From the NCBI GenBank assembly GCA_947479475.1, contig CANJZW010000005.1, forward strand, positions 1 through 64,000: 64,000 nt of DNA, read 5' to 3'. The position numbers were made by a program, and so were the translations under genes. The stretch is from Chthoniobacteraceae bacterium. Its GTDB lineage: Bacteria; Verrucomicrobiota; Verrucomicrobiia; Chthoniobacterales; Chthoniobacteraceae. The notes below the pieces were generated by a model. It searched no databases. It was not told where the DNA came from and saw only the letters and a list, made by a program, of their open reading frames with translations. Shown piece after piece: positions 6,901 through 29,075 of this stretch (positions are counted from its first letter, which is position 1; each line of letters opens with the position of its first letter).

Positions 6901-8397
6901 TCAGTGCGCGGTTGCCGCCAAGGGGGCGGGTGAAGATTGCAGGGCTGCCAGGACGGGTTTTGGGTTCACACCGAAGACGAAAATTCCAGTCACCAGCAAC
7001 GCGATGACGAGCTTGGAGAGGCCCGAGACGTGGATGGGAGAGGTGTCTGTGGGCTCTGCCCAGTACATCGCCGCGACCACTCGCAGATAGAAGTAGAACC
7101 CTGCTCCAACAGTGACAGTGGCGAGTGCGAGGAGTGTCCATTGATGCGCGTTCACAGCCTGCGCGAACACGAGGAATTTACCGTAGAAGCCTGCGGTGAG
7201 GGGCACGCCGGCTAGGGAAGACATTGCCACAAGGAGACCAAAAGCGAGGAAGGGGGAGCGTCTGGAAAGGCCGTTGAAGTGATGGATTTCTTCGCCCTTG
7301 GTGTGCTGGGTGGCGATGGTGAGAATCAGGAAGCTCAACAGCGTCATCAGGAGATACGCGAACAAATAAAAGCCGACCGTTGATCCCACGCTGCCCAGGG
7401 CGGAGGGTGCAACGCCGATGCAAGCAATCGCCATGAGCAGGTAACCGGCGTGGCCAACGCTTGAATAGGCAAGAAGGCGCTTGAGGTTGTTTTGGGGCAG
7501 GGCGGCAAGGTTGCCGAAAATGAGTGTCGCCCCAGCAAGAACGGTGAGGACCAGAAGGATTTTGTTCGAGAGCGCGGCTACGCCGAGGAAAGGCTCAAGC
7601 ACGCGCAGCAACAGCAAGAATCCAGCGGCCTTGGAGCCTACGGAAAGAAAGGCGGTCACCGGGGTGGGGGCACCTTGGTAGACATCGGGAACCCAACTTT
7701 GGAAGGGAACGGCGGCGACTTTAAAGCCGAGGCCTACGAGGACGAGAACGAGCGCAAAAAGAATGGCGGTGTCGGAGTCTTGAAGCGCGGCGAGTTTGAC
7801 GGCGATTTTTGCGAAATGGGTTTCGCCTGTCAGGCCAAAAATCCAAGTGATGCCGTAGACGAAGAAGCCCGTGCTGAGCGCGCCTAGAATGAGGTATTTG
7901 ACGCCGGCCTCGAGGGAAGCGTGACTGCCTCGCATGTAGGCAACCATGACGTAGAAGGAGATCGTGACCAACTCAAGGGCGGCGAAGGCCATGACGAGAT
8001 CTACGGCGGAGGCGAGCAACATCAGCCCGGTACAGGTGAAGAGTGGCAGGATAAAAAACTCACCCGTGCCCGCACCAGTGCGAGAGGAGGGGATGTTCTT
8101 GGCGAGGACCGCTTCATATTCAAGGGCCATGACGAGGACGGCCATGGTGGTGAGGAGCGCGATGCGCTTGAAGACCATCGAAACCGGGTCGGCGCTGTAG
8201 AAATTCCAAAAGCTTCCTGGTTCAGGATTGGAGGGAGCGGATTCAACAAAAAAACTGAGGGCGAATACCCAGCCGAGGCAAAAGATCGCGATCTTGGCGA
8301 GCGATCGTTTGCTGGTGCTGTTGGAGAAGGATTCTGCGAGCAGGAGGATGAACCCGAGGGCGAGAACCAGAATTTCGAGGGTGATGGGCGCAAACAT
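6901..8397 (-). CDS. nuoN: NADH-quinone oxidoreductase subunit N
   Basis: About 498 residues and roughly 14 hydrophobic segments. It is an antiporter-like proton-pumping subunit of complex I in the cytoplasmic membrane. The Proton_antipo_M region is recognisable from AALELVTISFYVMVAYMRG and the later VLVGLGFKVAAVPFQSWVPD, where the conserved Lys and the WVPDVY segment of the pump sit. NNLKRLLAYSSVGHAGYLL is also typical of NuoN. I use the ATG at 8397, six bases after the nuoM stop; a TTG two codons earlier is also open. It is the last gene of the operon, with 145 bases to the next minus-strand gene. Confidence 0.95.
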   Translation of the reverse strand: MFAPITLEILVLALGFILLLAESFSNSTSKRSLAKIAIFCLGWVFALSFFVESAPSNPEPGSFWNFYSADPVSMVFKRIALLTTMAVLVMALEYEAVLAKNIPSSRTGAGTGEFFILPLFTCTGLMLLASAVDLVMAFAALELVTISFYVMVAYMRGSHASLEAGVKYLILGALSTGFFVYGITWIFGLTGETHFAKIAVKLAALQDSDTAILFALVLVLVGLGFKVAAVPFQSWVPDVYQGAPTPVTAFLSVGSKAAGFLLLLRVLEPFLGVAALSNKILLVLTVLAGATLIFGNLAALPQNNLKRLLAYSSVGHAGYLLMAIACIGVAPSALGSVGSTVGFYLFAYLLMTLLSFLILTIATQHTKGEEIHHFNGLSRRSPFLAFGLLVAMSSLAGVPLTAGFYGKFLVFAQAVNAHQWTLLALATVTVGAGFYFYLRVVAAMYWAEPTDTSPIHVSGLSKLVIALLVTGIFVFGVNPKPVLAALQSSPAPLAATAH

Positions 8398-8403
8398 GGT
8401 CAA

Positions 8404-9891
8404 CTAGCGGAGAGCCGCCTCCAGTGTGGGTTTGAGGAAGCCGAGGAAGTAGTGAGGAAAGAATCCTCCCAAGAGCAATGCGATGGGCAGCAGCGCGAAA
8501 GCATAACGCGCGCCGCCATGGAGATCGTTCCATTTGAGGGAGGACGCCGTTGCTTCGCCGAGGAAAACGGCTTTGTAGGCGCGCAGCATGTACACGGCGG
8601 AGATAACCACGCCCCAAAGTGCGAGGATCGTGGTGGTTTTGAGGAAGGGGGTCGCGCCTTCTTTGAAGCCGCCGAAAAACACGAGGACTTCGCTTGCGAA
8701 GTTGGAGAAACCGGGAAGGCCGATCGAAGCGAAGGCTGCCATCGCAAAGGCAATACTTAGGAAGGGGACGCTCTTTGCCGCACCGCCGAGACGCTCGAAG
8801 TTTAGGGAGCCTTCCCGCTCGCGTAGGACACCGGCGAGGGCGAATAAGGCCGCTACAGATAGGCCGTGGGAGAACATCAGCAGGCAGGCGCCGTTCAGCC
8901 CGATGATGTTCATGGAGGCGATTCCCAAAAACACGTAACCCATGTGCATGACGCTCGAATAGCCGATTACGTAGTCCAGTTTACGCTGCGCAATGGTCAC
9001 GAGCCCCACGTAGAGGATGTTGCCAAGGAGTGCGGCGAGCAAAAGATCTTGTGCTGTCCAAGTGCCGAACACCGGCTGGTGGAAGGCCTGCGGGAGGAAT
9101 GGCACTACCAAGCGGAGCATTCCATAGAGGCCGAATTTTTTGAGAACGCCCGAGTGCAGCATTGCCACGGGAGAGGGGGCGCAGGCATATGCGGGAGCCG
9201 CCCAAGAGTGGAATGGGAAAAGGGAAACGAGAATTCCAAACCCAGTGGTTAACAAGAGCCAGGGGCGCAATTGTGCTGCCGCAGGAATGACGTGGGAGGC
9301 GGCGAGTTCCTGCAGTTTTTGAAGGTCGAAGGTGCGACTGGCCGCCGGAATGGCGAGGAAAAGATCCACCAAACCTGTGAGAAGAACGATGCTGCCGAGC
9401 CCAAGGTAGATCGTGATTTTCCACGCCACGGCCTGGCGTTCTCCGCTTCCCCAGAAGCCGATCAGAAGGAAGGTGGGGATGAGGGCCAGTTCATGAAAGG
9501 CGTAGAAGAAAAACAGATCTTTGGCTAGAAACGCTCCAGTAGCACCGGCGCTGATGAGCAGGACGGAACCGTCGAAGAGCCCCGCGCGTTTGTCTCCCTC
9601 CAGCTTAGGGGAGAACCAGACGGCGGCTACGGTCACGAGCGCCGTTAGGAGGAGCATGAGAAGGCTCAAGCCGTCCACGCCCACCGCGTAGCGCAGATCG
9701 AGACCGGGGAAAAGGGGTTCCGTTGCGAAGACGAATTGGTAACCCGCTTTGGTTTTATCGTAGCCAAACCAGAGCAGAAAAGTGACAGCCAATTGGAGTA
9801 GCGCCGCTGTTTTTGACCAGGAGCGGCTCCCGTTGCCCAAAAAGAGGGCGGCCGCGGTGACGATGGGAATGAGGAGAAGAAGAGTAAGCAC
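8404..9891 (-). CDS. nuoM: NADH-quinone oxidoreductase subunit M
   Basis: The 495-residue polytopic membrane protein starts at a GTG. It is the second antiporter-like subunit of complex I. Recognition is by FYAFHELALIPTFLLIGFWG with its conserved Glu, PFHSWAAPAYACAPSPVAML (the usual form has LPDAH; here AAPAYA is a variant) and GYSSVMHMGYVFLGI. The altered WAAPAYAC segment, where Asp-Ala-His is usual in NuoM, is an oddity worth noting. It sits between nuoL (15 bases upstream) and nuoN (six bases downstream). Confidence 0.95.
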   Translation of the reverse strand: MLTLLLLIPIVTAAALFLGNGSRSWSKTAALLQLAVTFLLWFGYDKTKAGYQFVFATEPLFPGLDLRYAVGVDGLSLLMLLLTALVTVAAVWFSPKLEGDKRAGLFDGSVLLISAGATGAFLAKDLFFFYAFHELALIPTFLLIGFWGSGERQAVAWKITIYLGLGSIVLLTGLVDLFLAIPAASRTFDLQKLQELAASHVIPAAAQLRPWLLLTTGFGILVSLFPFHSWAAPAYACAPSPVAMLHSGVLKKFGLYGMLRLVVPFLPQAFHQPVFGTWTAQDLLLAALLGNILYVGLVTIAQRKLDYVIGYSSVMHMGYVFLGIASMNIIGLNGACLLMFSHGLSVAALFALAGVLREREGSLNFERLGGAAKSVPFLSIAFAMAAFASIGLPGFSNFASEVLVFFGGFKEGATPFLKTTTILALWGVVISAVYMLRAYKAVFLGEATASSLKWNDLHGGARYAFALLPIALLLGGFFPHYFLGFLKPTLEAALR

Positions 9892-24438: not shown

Positions 24439-25368
24439 TCAGGAAATCTGCGGCGCGACGGAGCAGAAGTCAAAAAAACCGATCTTTTCCAATTCTACCC
24501 GTAGCTCGTTTTCCTTCGCTTCCGTCAGGCTTCTGAGCGGAAGACGGACCGGACCGCAGTCCAGACCGATAAGTCGCATGATCGACTTTCCGGCTGCCAA
24601 GCCGCCGAAACGCAAAAAAACCGAGATCATCGCGTTGGCACGAGCCTGTTCCGCCTGCGCTGTGGGCAGATCTCCCTCGGCAAAAGCCTTCAAGATTCGG
24701 AGATAGACTGGGGCTGCGAAATTATAAGTGCTGCCGATCGCCCCTTTGGCTCCAAGAGCGAGGCCGGAAATCAATATCTCATCGCGGCCGAATACGATGT
24801 CAAAACGCCCGTCTTCCAGGCGCGTGCTTTCCGCGAAATCCATGAGGTTTTCAAATGTGAATTTAATGCCCGCTAGATTTGGTATTTTCTTTTGCGCTGC
24901 ACGCAGAAAATCCGCGGTGGGAAGCGTCACTCCGGTCATGGACGGAATCTGGTAGTAATAGTAGGGCAGGGCGGGTGCGGCGGCGGCAACCCCGGCACAG
25001 AAGTCAACAAGGTCCTCTGTATTCGCAGGTTTGAAAAAGAAGGGTGCGAAGTTACTCACCCCGAAGGCTCCTATTTTTTGGGCATGCGCAGCAAGCGTCT
25101 GACATTCGGCCAAAGAAGTGTGTCCCGCGTGGACGATGACGCGCAGTTCTGGTCCTGCCACTTTGCACCAGCGGGTTGCCACCGCCATGCGCTCCGCAGT
25201 TGTTAACGAAACGCCTTCTCCAGTGGTTCCGCATACGAACGCGCCCGAGACGCCGCTGGCAATGAGCGAACAAGCCTGAGCTTCAATGGCTTTTAGGTTA
25301 AGGGAAGCGTCCGCGTTTAAGGCGACGTAGGGGGCGGCAATGAGGCCGGTGAGTTTTGGTGCATTCAT
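24439..25368 (-). CDS. nanA: N-acetylneuraminate lyase-like (DapA/NAL superfamily)
   Basis: The 309-residue TIM barrel has the expected parts of N-acetylneuraminate lyase: GTTGEG at 47-52, the run YYYYQIPSMTGV at 136-147 carrying the catalytic Tyr and the IPSMTGV loop, and the Schiff-base Lys at residue 169 in GIKFT. The Y-x-IPxxTGV form is that of NanA, not of dihydrodipicolinate synthase. It would split N-acetylneuraminate into pyruvate and N-acetylmannosamine in the cytoplasm. It is the third gene of the set after a sialidase and a mutarotase, which supports the substrate. A 220-base gap separates it from the mutarotase gene. Confidence 0.85.
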   Translation of the reverse strand: MNAPKLTGLIAAPYVALNADASLNLKAIEAQACSLIASGVSGAFVCGTTGEGVSLTTAERMAVATRWCKVAGPELRVIVHAGHTSLAECQTLAAHAQKIGAFGVSNFAPFFFKPANTEDLVDFCAGVAAAAPALPYYYYQIPSMTGVTLPTADFLRAAQKKIPNLAGIKFTFENLMDFAESTRLEDGRFDIVFGRDEILISGLALGAKGAIGSTYNFAAPVYLRILKAFAEGDLPTAQAEQARANAMISVFLRFGGLAAGKSIMRLIGLDCGPVRLPLRSLTEAKENELRVELEKIGFFDFCSVAPQIS

Positions 25369-25588
25369 GACGATTGGGTGTTTGGATTCTGTGAGATGGG
25401 GAGTCTGCTGATTGTTTCGTGGGTAGCGTATTGTTTGACTAGGGAGCGGGTTGTGTTTTTTGGGCTCTCTGGGCGGGTGCGTGGGTTTAGCCCGGACGTA
25501 AATCAGGAAGCCGCTAGAGGTGCAGTCTATGAAGTTGAAGATACCGACTGCTAACTAGGCTGCGGGGGGCGGTGGGGCGGGGGGTCAC

Positions 25589-26677
25589 TTATTTCGTATT
25601 CTGCTCCATGGTCCAGATCTCGGGGGTCCTGACGCGAGGCCGCACTTCTCCGCTGGGAATGACGGTGCCGTTCTTCCAGAGGACAGTCGGCGCGGTCGCT
25701 CTGGAAAAGGGCAGGGGACCGGCGCTTCGCCAAAAATCGTTGGCGGTGTCGTAGGCAAGGATGTCCATCGGAAAACCGGGATGTTTCTGGATCGGCGAAA
25801 AGTCCACGTGCGTGCCGTCATCTCCGCTGAGAACAAGAAGTTCTGATTCTCCAAAGGCTGGAGCCGGTGAGGGAGCCGCCACGGCCGCCCTGGGAAGGTC
25901 TGCAATCCTGCGCCACCCCTTATTGGGCGTGAAGCAATAGGCGTCGCGGAGAAAGTCGCGAATAACGCTCCCGTCTTTACCCTCAGAAAGATTACAGCCG
26001 CTGAAGAGATAGAAGGAGCCGTGCCGCACCGCCGCCACCGCAAGCATCCGCGGGGGGCCGGGCCACGGCTCAAGTTCACGCCAGCTCGGATTCGTTTCCC
26101 CGAGGTCCATTGCCCATAATTGATGCAAGGCACCTGTCGATTTTGGGGTTTCAAGTCCGCCGGCGACATAGATCGTTTGGCCAATGGAGGCTCCACAGGC
26201 GTTGGCACAGGTTCTGGGCAGGGAGGGGAGTTCGGTGTAATGAACTTGGCCGTTTTTCCATTGGAGCCGGAAGACTTCGGCAAAGTGGCGAGTGGAATCA
26301 CTTCCTCCGATGCAGATTAAGCCGTCTTGGATGGTGACGGATACCCCGTAGCCCAAGGGTCGTGGCAGTTTGAATCCGGCACGCCAAGTCCCCGTCGTTT
26401 TTTCCAAAACAAACCCGCTGTCGTACCACTTTTTTTGGAGTGGGTCGGCCCAGCGCGCTCCAATGATATTGGCGCCGCCTGCGACAAGAAGTGCTTCGCC
26501 GCTGACTCCGGCAAATGTGCCGGCGAACCCTTCCTTGTCGGGAATGGGCGGTAATTGGCTCCATTGAAGAGGGTGGGTCCTCGGGGGGGATTGCTGTGGC
26601 AAAGAGACTTGGGCGAAACACGGGAGGGCTGGCGAGAGACTCCAGGCTAGGCAAGCGCTTAAAAATACGGGGAACAT
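25589..26677 (-). CDS. nanM: Exported Kelch-type N-acetylneuraminate mutarotase-like protein
   Basis: The 362-residue product has a Sec signal (MFPVFLSACLAWSLSPALPCFA) and a beta-propeller of Kelch type. Repeats show VAGGANIIGARW, CIGGSDSTRH, VAGGLETPKS and LVLSGDDGTHVDF, each ending in paired Gly followed by an aromatic. The pattern fits the cyclically permuted mutarotase family related to NanM, which interconverts alpha and beta sialic acid outside the cytoplasm. It starts 13 bases after the sialidase stop, so the two are co-translated. The neighbours make sialic acid the likely substrate. Confidence 0.85.
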   Translation of the reverse strand: MFPVFLSACLAWSLSPALPCFAQVSLPQQSPPRTHPLQWSQLPPIPDKEGFAGTFAGVSGEALLVAGGANIIGARWADPLQKKWYDSGFVLEKTTGTWRAGFKLPRPLGYGVSVTIQDGLICIGGSDSTRHFAEVFRLQWKNGQVHYTELPSLPRTCANACGASIGQTIYVAGGLETPKSTGALHQLWAMDLGETNPSWRELEPWPGPPRMLAVAAVRHGSFYLFSGCNLSEGKDGSVIRDFLRDAYCFTPNKGWRRIADLPRAAVAAPSPAPAFGESELLVLSGDDGTHVDFSPIQKHPGFPMDILAYDTANDFWRSAGPLPFSRATAPTVLWKNGTVIPSGEVRPRVRTPEIWTMEQNTK

Positions 26678-26690
26678 GGGGTGCAGAAAA

Positions 26691-27929
26691 TCAACGTGGG
26701 GAATTTTCCGGTCTTTTAGAGGGCGTGGGCTGTGCGCGAGAGTTCATCCATAGGGAACTCAAGCGGGCGATGGTAAGCGACTGCTTGCGTTCGTAGAAAC
26801 AGAGGGTCGTCCCATCTGGCAGAATCGCTAGGTCCGAGTAAGCGCTGGCGGATTCCTCCACGGTTTTTGGAAGGCCCCATGTCTGGCCGTCGTCTTCGCT
26901 AATTTGGATGCTCAGGTTTTTTCTTCCGGCTTGTGCACCCGGGATTTCCTGGCCGTTTGCGTCGTATTTGAGGTTGTGCGGGTGGCAGAAAAGAAGGCGT
27001 CCGCGTGGTTCACTGGAGGGAACGCGGATTAGGCTTCCCATGCATTTGGGATCGAGCAGCGCGAAATCGAATTGAGGCGCCGACCAATGGGTCGCGCCAT
27101 CGGGGCTAATGGTGATTAGGCGGCGGTTGGCTGCGGAGTTTGTGCGGGCGTTTAACATCACGCGGCCGTCTGCGAGTTCAACAAGAGCGGCTTCGTTGGG
27201 GTTTTTCCACTCCGCCGTAGATGGCAGGGCGATTTCTCCTGCGTGCCAGGTCCGCCCATGGTCGTCGCTGTAAATCGTTCCGCTCATCGACGGCGAATGA
27301 TCGCCCGTCTTTCCGTAGGCCAGCCAGATGGGAACGGCGAGACGACCGTTTTTGAGCTGGAGCCCGTGGCCGGGGCCTGTGGCGAGAACCTTCCAAGCAC
27401 ACTTCCCTCTGAAGGCTTCAAAGGCCTGCGTGATCTCGATCGGAGTGGAGAAGGTTAACCCATCGTCGTCGCTTTTCATATAAAAGCAGCGCGCGTAATT
27501 GATGCAGTACAAAAAATGGATCGCGTTGGTTTCGCGATCCACAATCGCCACCGGGTTATTGACGGTTTGCTCCTTCTCGCCGCCATTGAGTTTATGCGGG
27601 TTTCCCGGCAAACGTTCCCCAAAGTGGGCAATCTGGCGGCTGGCCTCCCAGGTGTTTCCTCCATCGGTACTCCGGCGGAGGTGAACTTCGATTTCCCCCC
27701 AATCGCTGCGGGCATCGCTGCGCGCCTCGCAGTACACCAGCACGGATCCTTTTTGGGTGACCACCATGCCTGGAATTCGATACAGGCCGAAGCCGTTTTC
27801 ACCCGCCGTAAAGAGATCGGTTTTTGGGATGGCGAAATCCTGCGCACCCGCCGTGGAAAGCGTGGCGAATAAGGACGCAGCGCCGAGGAATGCGGCGCAC
27901 AAACGGGCGAACGGGTGGGGGAAATACAT
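26691..27929 (-). CDS. nanH: Secreted exo-alpha-sialidase
   Basis: The 412-residue product has a Sec signal ending near STAGAQ and a six-bladed sialidase fold. The RIP motif (YRIPG near residue 52) supplies the first arginine of the triad. Asp-box repeats are visible as STDGGNTW, SDDHGRTW and SEDDGQTW. A late YSDLAILPDGTTLCFYE block holds the catalytic Tyr/Glu region. It should release terminal sialic acids from glycans outside the cell. It is the first gene of the three-gene set and its start faces a divergent regulator across 69 bases. Confidence 0.9.
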   Translation of the reverse strand: MYFPHPFARLCAAFLGAASLFATLSTAGAQDFAIPKTDLFTAGENGFGLYRIPGMVVTQKGSVLVYCEARSDARSDWGEIEVHLRRSTDGGNTWEASRQIAHFGERLPGNPHKLNGGEKEQTVNNPVAIVDRETNAIHFLYCINYARCFYMKSDDDGLTFSTPIEITQAFEAFRGKCAWKVLATGPGHGLQLKNGRLAVPIWLAYGKTGDHSPSMSGTIYSDDHGRTWHAGEIALPSTAEWKNPNEAALVELADGRVMLNARTNSAANRRLITISPDGATHWSAPQFDFALLDPKCMGSLIRVPSSEPRGRLLFCHPHNLKYDANGQEIPGAQAGRKNLSIQISEDDGQTWGLPKTVEESASAYSDLAILPDGTTLCFYERKQSLTIARLSSLWMNSRAQPTPSKRPENSPR

Positions 27930-27998
27930 TCTGTAATCCTCGAGTGAGGGGGCCTTGAACTCTAGACCAACAAGCTGGTAAAATTAGTTTACCGCCCG
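27930..27998. promoter_or_regulatory. Divergent nan promoter region
   Basis: The 69 bases between the sialidase start (minus) and the regulator start (plus) contain a single strong palindrome, annotated separately. Both promoters must lie here or overlap the 5' ends of the genes. Neither start has a Shine-Dalgarno sequence. Confidence 0.6.
27977..27993. promoter_or_regulatory. Probable operator, perfect 17-bp palindrome
   Basis: GGTAAA and TTTACC flank the five-base spacer ATTAG. It ends five bases before the regulator start codon and lies 47 bases upstream of the sialidase start. An inverted repeat with an odd centre is the usual shape of GntR-family operators. The position suggests control of the nan genes together with autoregulation. 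Confidence 0.65.
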
Positions 27999-29075
27999 AT
28001 GTCCCACTTTCCCGCCATTCCGCATCGTCCCTCGTTGATTGAACACGCCGCAAAGATACTTCGCGACGCCCTGACGTTGGGCACCTGGGCAGGATATCTT
28101 CCCGGTGAACGAGCGCTGAGCGTGCAGCTTCACGTGAGCCGACCAACCCTTCGCGCGGCCCTTGTGATTCTCGACCGGGAGGGTTGGTTCAGGTCGGAAC
28201 TCGGAAAACGACGCGCAATTATAATGCCCCATTGCAAACCCAGGCCAAGCCCGACAAGGACAATTGCGTTGCTAAGTCCCCTGCCATTGACGGATCTGGT
28301 CTCGTTTGCGCAGGTCTGGACGGACAGTCTTCGAGAGTTCTTATCGAAAGCAGGGTATGAATTGCAAATTTACCTGGGACGCCGATGGTGGCACTCGCTG
28401 AGTCCGGAGCGGGAGCTGGCAGCCCTTACTGAGCAGAATCCCGCCGCCGTGTGGGTGTTATTCAGCGGAACGGAACGCATTCAGCGGTGGTTTGAGGAGA
28501 GTTCAATTCCCTGTGTGACATCGGGTTCAGCACATGCTGGAATTCAGCTTCCGTCTGTGGATTTGAATCATCGAGCCACGTGCAGGCATGCCGCCGGTCA
28601 ATTTCTTTCCGCCGGTCATCAGCGTGTTGCTTTGATGCGGCAGGGGCCGAGGAATGCTGGAGATTTTGAAAGCGAGCAGGGTTTTTTGGAGGCGTTTTGT
28701 GCGAAGGCCGGAACGCATGCATGGGTTGTGGAGCACGACGGCACTCCTTCTGGAATCCAAAGAAAGTTAGACTCGGCGCTGAGGGGGTCCCCGCGGCCGA
28801 GCGGCTTTTTCGTCACCCACGCCATGCCTGCCCTCCTGGTTGCCAGTGAACTAATACGCCGGGGAATCAACCTCCCCGGAGATGCTTCAATCATCTGTCG
28901 AGACACGGATTTGTTCCTCGAATACTTTTCCCCCAGCATCGCGCGTTACCGGGTGGATCCGCTCGTCCATGCGATGCGCCTAGGGCGTCTGGTGTTGCAA
29001 CGTGCAAGCGGTAGCTCCTCAAAAAATCGGCTGGTGCGGCTGGTGCCGCAGTTCCACCCCGGGGAGTCGATGTAA
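27999..29075 (+). CDS. GntR/LacI-hybrid transcription regulator of the nan genes
   Basis: The 358-residue product has an N-terminal GntR winged helix (residues about 10-75): AAKILRDALTLGTWAGYLPGERALSVQLHVSRPTLRAALVIL is split between the dimer-facing helix and the recognition helix. The rest (about 85-350) is a LacI-type periplasmic-binding-like sensor domain, with QRVALMRQGPRNAGDFESEQGF and DASIICRDTDLFLEYF as typical blocks. This architecture is that of AraR-like regulators. Divergent orientation and the shared palindrome make it the probable repressor of the sialidase operon. The ligand may be sialic acid or N-acetylmannosamine; the sequence does not tell. Confidence 0.8.
   Translation: MSHFPAIPHRPSLIEHAAKILRDALTLGTWAGYLPGERALSVQLHVSRPTLRAALVILDREGWFRSELGKRRAIIMPHCKPRPSPTRTIALLSPLPLTDLVSFAQVWTDSLREFLSKAGYELQIYLGRRWWHSLSPERELAALTEQNPAAVWVLFSGTERIQRWFEESSIPCVTSGSAHAGIQLPSVDLNHRATCRHAAGQFLSAGHQRVALMRQGPRNAGDFESEQGFLEAFCAKAGTHAWVVEHDGTPSGIQRKLDSALRGSPRPSGFFVTHAMPALLVASELIRRGINLPGDASIICRDTDLFLEYFSPSIARYRVDPLVHAMRLGRLVLQRASGSSSKNRLVRLVPQFHPGESM

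Follow-up and report, generated by a model that had tools for sequence, protein, structure and literature searches.

The window, i.e. the whole stretch of 64,000 nucleotides analysed here, contains a presumed nan operon on the minus strand and, facing away from it, the gene of a transcriptional regulator. The regulator gene is separated from the sialidase gene that opens the operon by a divergent region of 69 bases (27,930–27,998). The features of this locus are listed below (G001, G008 and G007 are genomes of relatives).

24,439–25,368, minus strand: NanA-like N-acetylneuraminate lyase, a DHDPS-family protein (its top NCBIfam match, the N-acetylneuraminate lyase model, scores under the cut-off)
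25,486–25,551, minus strand: possible relic of an MFS transporter (weak match to G001: 22 amino acids, 41%, E 0.12)
25,589–26,677, minus strand: NanM-like N-acetylneuraminate epimerase (kelch; Pfam, NCBIfam)
26,691–27,929, minus strand: sialidase with BNR repeats (Pfam), first gene of the presumed nan operon, in the same place in G001, G008 and G007
27,955–27,984, plus strand: predicted regulator promoter, TTGAAC (27,955–27,960), 18 bases, TAAAAT (27,979–27,984) (consensus scan)
27,975–27,995, no strand: proposed full operator, CTGGTAA-AATTAGT-TTACCGC (comparison with relatives)
27,977–27,993, no strand: palindrome GGTAAA-ATTAG-TTTACC, proposed operator core (sequence, shuffles)
27,999–29,075, plus strand: regulator, 358 amino acids, with a GntR winged helix (residues 16–67) and a Peripla_BP_3 sensor (residues 200–357)

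The sequence at 27,977–27,993, GGTAAAATTAGTTTACC, is a perfect 17-bp palindrome (GGTAAA-N5-TTTACC). The original prediction had described it as the only strong symmetric site of the divergent region, ending five bases before the regulator start, and the window sequence bears this out: the 69 bases contain a single perfect 6+6 inverted repeat with a spacer of 0–11, and five bases lie between its end and the ATG at 27,999. Taken alone, the palindrome is no more than chance. A perfect 6+6 palindrome was also present in 12.9% of 20,000 mononucleotide shuffles of the divergent region (1.4% for spacer 5 alone) and in 381 of 2,780 real 69-mers of the window (13.7%). A search of the window with the palindrome pattern at ≤2 mismatches gave no excess (1 place found vs 1.1 expected). 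In the draft assembly (5.07 Mb) the 17-mer has a single exact match, and its pattern at ≤2 mismatches matched 137 places vs 201 for the reversed control. We accepted the palindrome as real because it is conserved in relatives.

A regulator match at E ≤ 1e-100 was found in five of 12 genomes of the genus, the window's own genome included. Conservation upstream of nan loci in close relatives, on which the original prediction had staked its reading, was found in all five relatives compared, with the core intact in four. The intact sites upstream of the regulator gene are GCTGGTAAAAATTGTTTACCAGC in G001 (regulator 77% identical; neighbours sialidase, NanM, MFS transporter and NanA), ACTGGTAATAATTGTTTACCAC in G008 (74%; sialidase, NanM, an MFS fragment and NanA), TGGTAAGTTTTGTTTACCA in G007 (56%; sialidase, MFS and NanA) and ACTGGTAAAAACGGTTTACCAGT in G013, which belongs to another genus (49%; BNR protein, NanM, MFS and NanA). 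In G010 (50%; NanA and a sialate-esterase-like gene) only the left arm of the upstream sequence ACTGGTAATAAAAACAAACCAGT is intact, the right arm being degenerate. A nan-gene context is thus common to all six members of this nan clade, i.e. the window and the five relatives, whose regulators form one clade in an 84-row tree (SH-aLRT 97). G001, G008, G007 and G010 correspond to loci L106, L107, L108 and L109, respectively, of the wider survey described below and were counted once each; without L108, the remaining five members form a clade with support 96 in an 83-row tree.

The same comparison changed the limits of the site. The predicted GGTAAA-N5-TTTACC is present, but conservation in relatives identifies it as the core of a larger unit with the consensus CTGGTAA-N7-TTACCAG (TGGTMA-N7-TKACCA in its family-level form), which measures 21–23 bp with extended arms. 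The two outermost bases of the right arm of the window operator deviate from this consensus and have decayed. The distance between GT and AC is 11, and this GT-N11-AC arrangement is, at the sequence level, a palindromic NyGTNxACNy site of the GntR superfamily. Since the site is kept beside the regulator in relatives, these comparisons support its reading as an operator for that regulator, and it is very probable that the neighbouring regulator, a predicted repressor, docks at the short palindrome.

The left arm of the operator also contains the −10 hexamer of the predicted regulator promoter, for which the consensus scan of the window found one match vs 0.2 expected in shuffles. A TG at 27,976–27,977 makes it an extended −10. 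Throughout the nan clade, a TTGAAY-like −35 hexamer lies exactly 18 bases before the TAAWAW-like hexamer of the left arm, with scores against TTGACA at this fixed offset of 4, 4, 4, 4, 5 and 3 of 6 in the six members, whereas none of 47 sites from other clades scores 4 or more at the same offset. Transcription would start near 27,991, only 7–8 bases before the ATG, and no Shine-Dalgarno-like stretch is visible by eye between this predicted start and the ATG. With the left arm doubling as a −10 box, direct autorepression and a near-leaderless mRNA are predicted: the −10 box and the start both fall inside the operator, so that a bound dimer would cover them. On the minus strand, the operator lies 48–64 bases upstream of the sialidase ATG; the consensus scan found no sialidase promoter there, and none was convincing by eye in three relatives.

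The −10 box alone accounts for the left arm and about 13% of shuffled regions hold a perfect 6+6 palindrome, as would be expected if the symmetry were accidental or if the site were simply a promoter with a −10 box resembling one half of a palindrome. We consider this very unlikely, because G001, G008, G007 and G013 retain the TTTACC of the right arm, for which the promoter has no need, and because the same spacing recurs at 49 of 79 relatives, most of them without a −35-like hexamer at that offset.

The regulator combines two families. Its winged helix (PF00392) scores 32.1 bits against a cut-off of 27, which places it in the GntR superfamily, and the combination PF00392 + PF13377 is the architecture of the AraR subfamily, with agreement between Pfam and an AlphaFold2 model (mean pLDDT 91.3, pTM 0.74) compared by Foldseek. 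No NCBIfam model scored above its cut-off on the regulator; the NanR model gave 18.9 bits against a cut-off of 260. The sensor of the model matches CelR, CcpA and SghR, i.e. general sugar-type LacI sensors, from which the effector is not readable. It therefore shares the sensor fold of LacI, CcpA, SghR and CelR, whereas its DNA-binding domain is a GntR winged helix; the helix-turn-helix headpiece by which the LacI family is defined had no Pfam match in the regulator at E 0.001. The winged helix aligns without gaps with that of FadR, and residues E37, R38, R48, T50 and R52, invariant across 54 relatives, correspond to FadR E34, R35, R45, T47 and R49, described as contacting DNA or supporting the contact (PMC4494728, available sections).

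Among known systems, AraR of Bacillus subtilis has the same domain order and a related sensor (profile match to 3tb6, E 3.6e-14), and it has a single palindromic box at its own gene (PMC4218819, available sections). However, AraR boxes, At(T/A)tGTaCGTAcaa(A/T)T in the same sections, have the spacing GT-N4-AC, whereas the operator described here is GT-N11-AC with CTGGTAA/TGGTCA arms; the AraR effector is L-arabinose, whereas the gene context here is nan or other, not arabinose. Given the spacing of 11, we regard the regulator as AraR-like in build and do not file it as AraR. The winged helix is also related to that of Escherichia coli NanR (6on4, E 1.6e-10 with the profile), whose half-site GGTATA resembles GGTAAA, and the presumed control of sialidase and nan genes would be a further likeness. 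Nevertheless, NanR binds as three dimers to direct GGTATA repeats, and its Neu5Ac-sensing C-terminal domain is of a different kind (PMC8012715, available sections), whereas the divergent region has one inverted repeat and the regulator carries Peripla_BP_3 in place of a FadR-type C-terminal ligand domain. FadR and the regulator have the DNA-contacting residues E-R...(S/T)-R-x-T-x-R in common, and their sites the TGGT half-site. The TKGT/ACMA boxes of FadR sites have GT and AC 3 apart (PMC4494728, available sections), compared with 11 here, and the regulator has no FadR-type C-terminal domain. Widely spaced half-sites have a precedent in the GntR superfamily, since YtrA-subfamily sites are described in the same sections with conserved GT and AC well away from the centre of the palindrome; this placement is, by description, like that of our operator, whereas the C-terminal domain of YtrA is short and not a LacI-type sensor. 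As GT-N11-AC exceeds the AraR or FadR spacing by about 7–8 bp, the winged helices would stand much further apart on the DNA, which raises the question of how a LacI-type dimer carries them.

To place the site in its wider family we collected 80 relatives' loci, all with Verrucomicrobiota-type titles except one 'uncultured bacterium' and one 'Kiritimatiellaeota', using an alignment of 10 closer members as query, as a 19-member alignment was too diverse. Of these loci, 79 had upstream sequence; L108, the contig of which begins inside the gene, was left out of the 79-locus counts, and L135, with a broken frame, was left out of trees and dereplicated counts. L108, L112, L149 and others, titled Akkermansia muciniphila or Opitutus sp. 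GAS368, match Chthoniobacteraceae-type genomes of the window's genus, and the titles of such metagenome records look unreliable.

TGGTMA-N7-TKACCA was present within 150 bases upstream, with at most one of its 12 fixed positions wrong, at 49 of the 79 loci, a count that is partly circular because the 12-position pattern had been drawn from genus- and family-level loci and from the palindromes listed for these 79 loci themselves. The controls are less affected by this circularity: in the same loci and at the same threshold the pattern was found downstream in 1/79, mid-gene in 0/79 and, when reversed, in 0/79; it was reached by 1.3% of 1,580 random windows; and when the spacer was varied from 0 to 14, 49 loci matched with spacer 7, four with spacer 2, one with spacer 12 and none with any other. 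Relaxing the threshold to two or three mismatches raised the count to 56 and 59 loci, and after dereplication at 70, 60 and 50% identity the site was kept in 25/49, 17/39 and 11/25 loci, respectively. The excess over the controls suggests that this is the self-operator of a subfamily combining a GntR winged helix with a LacI-type sensor. In 23 of the 79 relatives no site at ≤2 mismatches lay within 150 bases upstream. At least one paralogue of the window's own genome, on contig C12, has a perfect core further off, upstream of the MFS gene that precedes it, so some of these 23 misses may be operators at the head of an operon.

The commonest arm type in the family is GGTCA...TGACC, and that of the nan clade is GGTAA...TTACC, a type that arose in L146 and L165 as well. 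L110, from the cultured strain Chthoniobacter flavus Ellin428, carries a family-type site. The 7-base spacer is biased in the upstream sites of L106–L185: of 49 sites, 40 have T as the third spacer base and 32 have C as the seventh. The outcome is often a TTTACC preceding the right arm, which resembles an additional, overlapping half-site.

An inverted repeat can always fold in RNA, so that the palindrome could in principle belong to a hairpin such as an attenuator or an mRNA leader element. This is the least probable of the readings we weighed and appears highly improbable. The variable position pairs C with T (CA) in 10 and A with G (AC) in 4 of the 59 site-bearing tree rows, combinations that would disrupt the stem, whereas the half-sites are retained. 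Moreover, the predicted regulator transcript begins inside the repeat, and there is no terminator-like site at it.

The original prediction had also proposed a genome-wide motif search for further targets. In the draft genome, which comprises 214 contigs and is 93% complete, this search revealed no scattered targets. At ≤3 mismatches CTGGTAA-N7-TTACCAG matched 99 places vs 153 for the reversed control, i.e. no excess; the broader TGGTMA-N7-TKACCA at ≤1 mismatch matched 29 vs 19 for the control. At ≤2 mismatches CTGGTAA-N7-TTACCAG was found in five places: the window site, two sites close to a paralogous regulator on contig C2, and two that fall within long reading frames. A scattered sialoregulon is thus not supported; as the other intergenic sites lie beside that one paralogue only, the system looks like a local switch.

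The genome's same-family paralogues (contigs C2, C12 and C174) share the winged helix, and TGGTMA-N7-TKACCA-like sites occur on C2 and C12, so that the window site might belong to one of them, or to another regulator, with cross-talk. This seems improbable given that the site adjoins this very orthologue in five relatives, G001, G008 and G013 included, and that the A-type arm (GGTAA) is common within the nan clade whereas most of the family has GGTCA.

The paralogous loci have features of their own. On C2 (L070), where the two operator-like sites are at 7769–7789 and 8788–8808, the regulator has as neighbours an SDR gene, a DHDPS-like lyase, an MFS transporter and a gene with 74% identity to the sialate-esterase-like gene of G010; L070 is perhaps a second sialic-acid-type locus. 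On C174 (L073), a second BNR sialidase accompanies a same-family regulator. The locus further contains a small gene (MLHHSDLLQLKRWNTPTIYNGWEQIT...), which in many Verrucomicrobiaceae relatives is likewise the first of the divergent genes.

Many related regulators away from nan genes are preceded by a site of the same class as the window operator, so that this class marks the regulator subfamily rather than sialic acid as such. In the 83-row tree, 26 rows are nan-linked, seven of them without the site, and 57 have no NanA, NanM or sialidase match in the examined flanks; sialidase labels were set by hand for L063 (Pfam BNR match), the own paralogue L073 and the window. A second clade of 16 rows from Verrucomicrobiaceae-type records (support 100) has the core without mismatch in 16/16 rows and a sialidase match in the examined flanks in 10/16. 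Two separate branches therefore link the regulator subfamily to sialidase genes.

Our preferred reading, which we consider probable, is that the palindrome is the core of an operator through which the regulator represses both itself and the nan genes until released by sialic acid or one of its products. A regulator dimer would put one winged helix on each CTGGTAA half-site. In the regulator's own promoter the left half-site would act as the extended −10 box (TGG-TAAAAT), an anatomy in which the bound dimer would directly block regulator transcription, and the same dimer would repress the divergent sialidase-NanM-NanA genes. Binding of sialic acid or a breakdown product (e.g. Neu5Ac, ManNAc) to the sensor would then free the operator, a step suggested by gene context. 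That sialic acid controls the regulator and the nan genes can be inferred on good grounds.

Alternatively, the regulator might bind the site and yet respond to an effector other than sialic acid, activate the nan genes, or act on itself only. The 57 of 83 tree rows without NanA, NanM or sialidase matches in the examined flanks speak for such a possibility, as do the ligands of the nearest solved sensor relatives (cellobiose, sucrose) and the failure to find a minus-strand promoter that the operator would clearly block. Nevertheless, all six nan-clade members adjoin nan genes, and 10 of the 16 rows of the second clade, with its perfect cores, have a sialidase match; we thus regard this alternative as unlikely, though the most plausible of those weighed against repression relieved by sialic acid.

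At a broader scale, the Verrucomicrobiota may possess a GntR-LacI subfamily with GT-N11-AC operators, in the sialic-acid branch of which the arms changed from GGTCA to GGTAA and the half-site became an extended −10, making it a new lineage of sialic acid regulators beside the NanR types; we give this proposal an even chance. Among the papers that our literature search listed, none was on such a regulator or motif in Verrucomicrobiota. The GntR-LacI combination is noted in a comparative analysis of LacI-family regulons, and the searched portion of its text does not contain the string 'Verrucomicrobi' (PMC4052901). A C. thermocellum study with matching motif letters was rejected, as those letters belong to a TetR site, which is no relative. 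The site described here provides a defined, testable operator for a regulator subfamily in a phylum with little regulatory work, and the common spacing allows the targets of dozens of same-family regulators to be predicted.

A final observation concerns transport. In G001 an MFS transporter is encoded between NanM and NanA; the corresponding gap of the window (25,369–25,588) lacks it, bar the possible relic, and the G008 transporter has lost its middle, residues 1–53 being followed by 355–383. These sequences suggest decay of the sialate transporter in the window's genus; a 51% homologue is encoded on contig C12 of the window's own genome.
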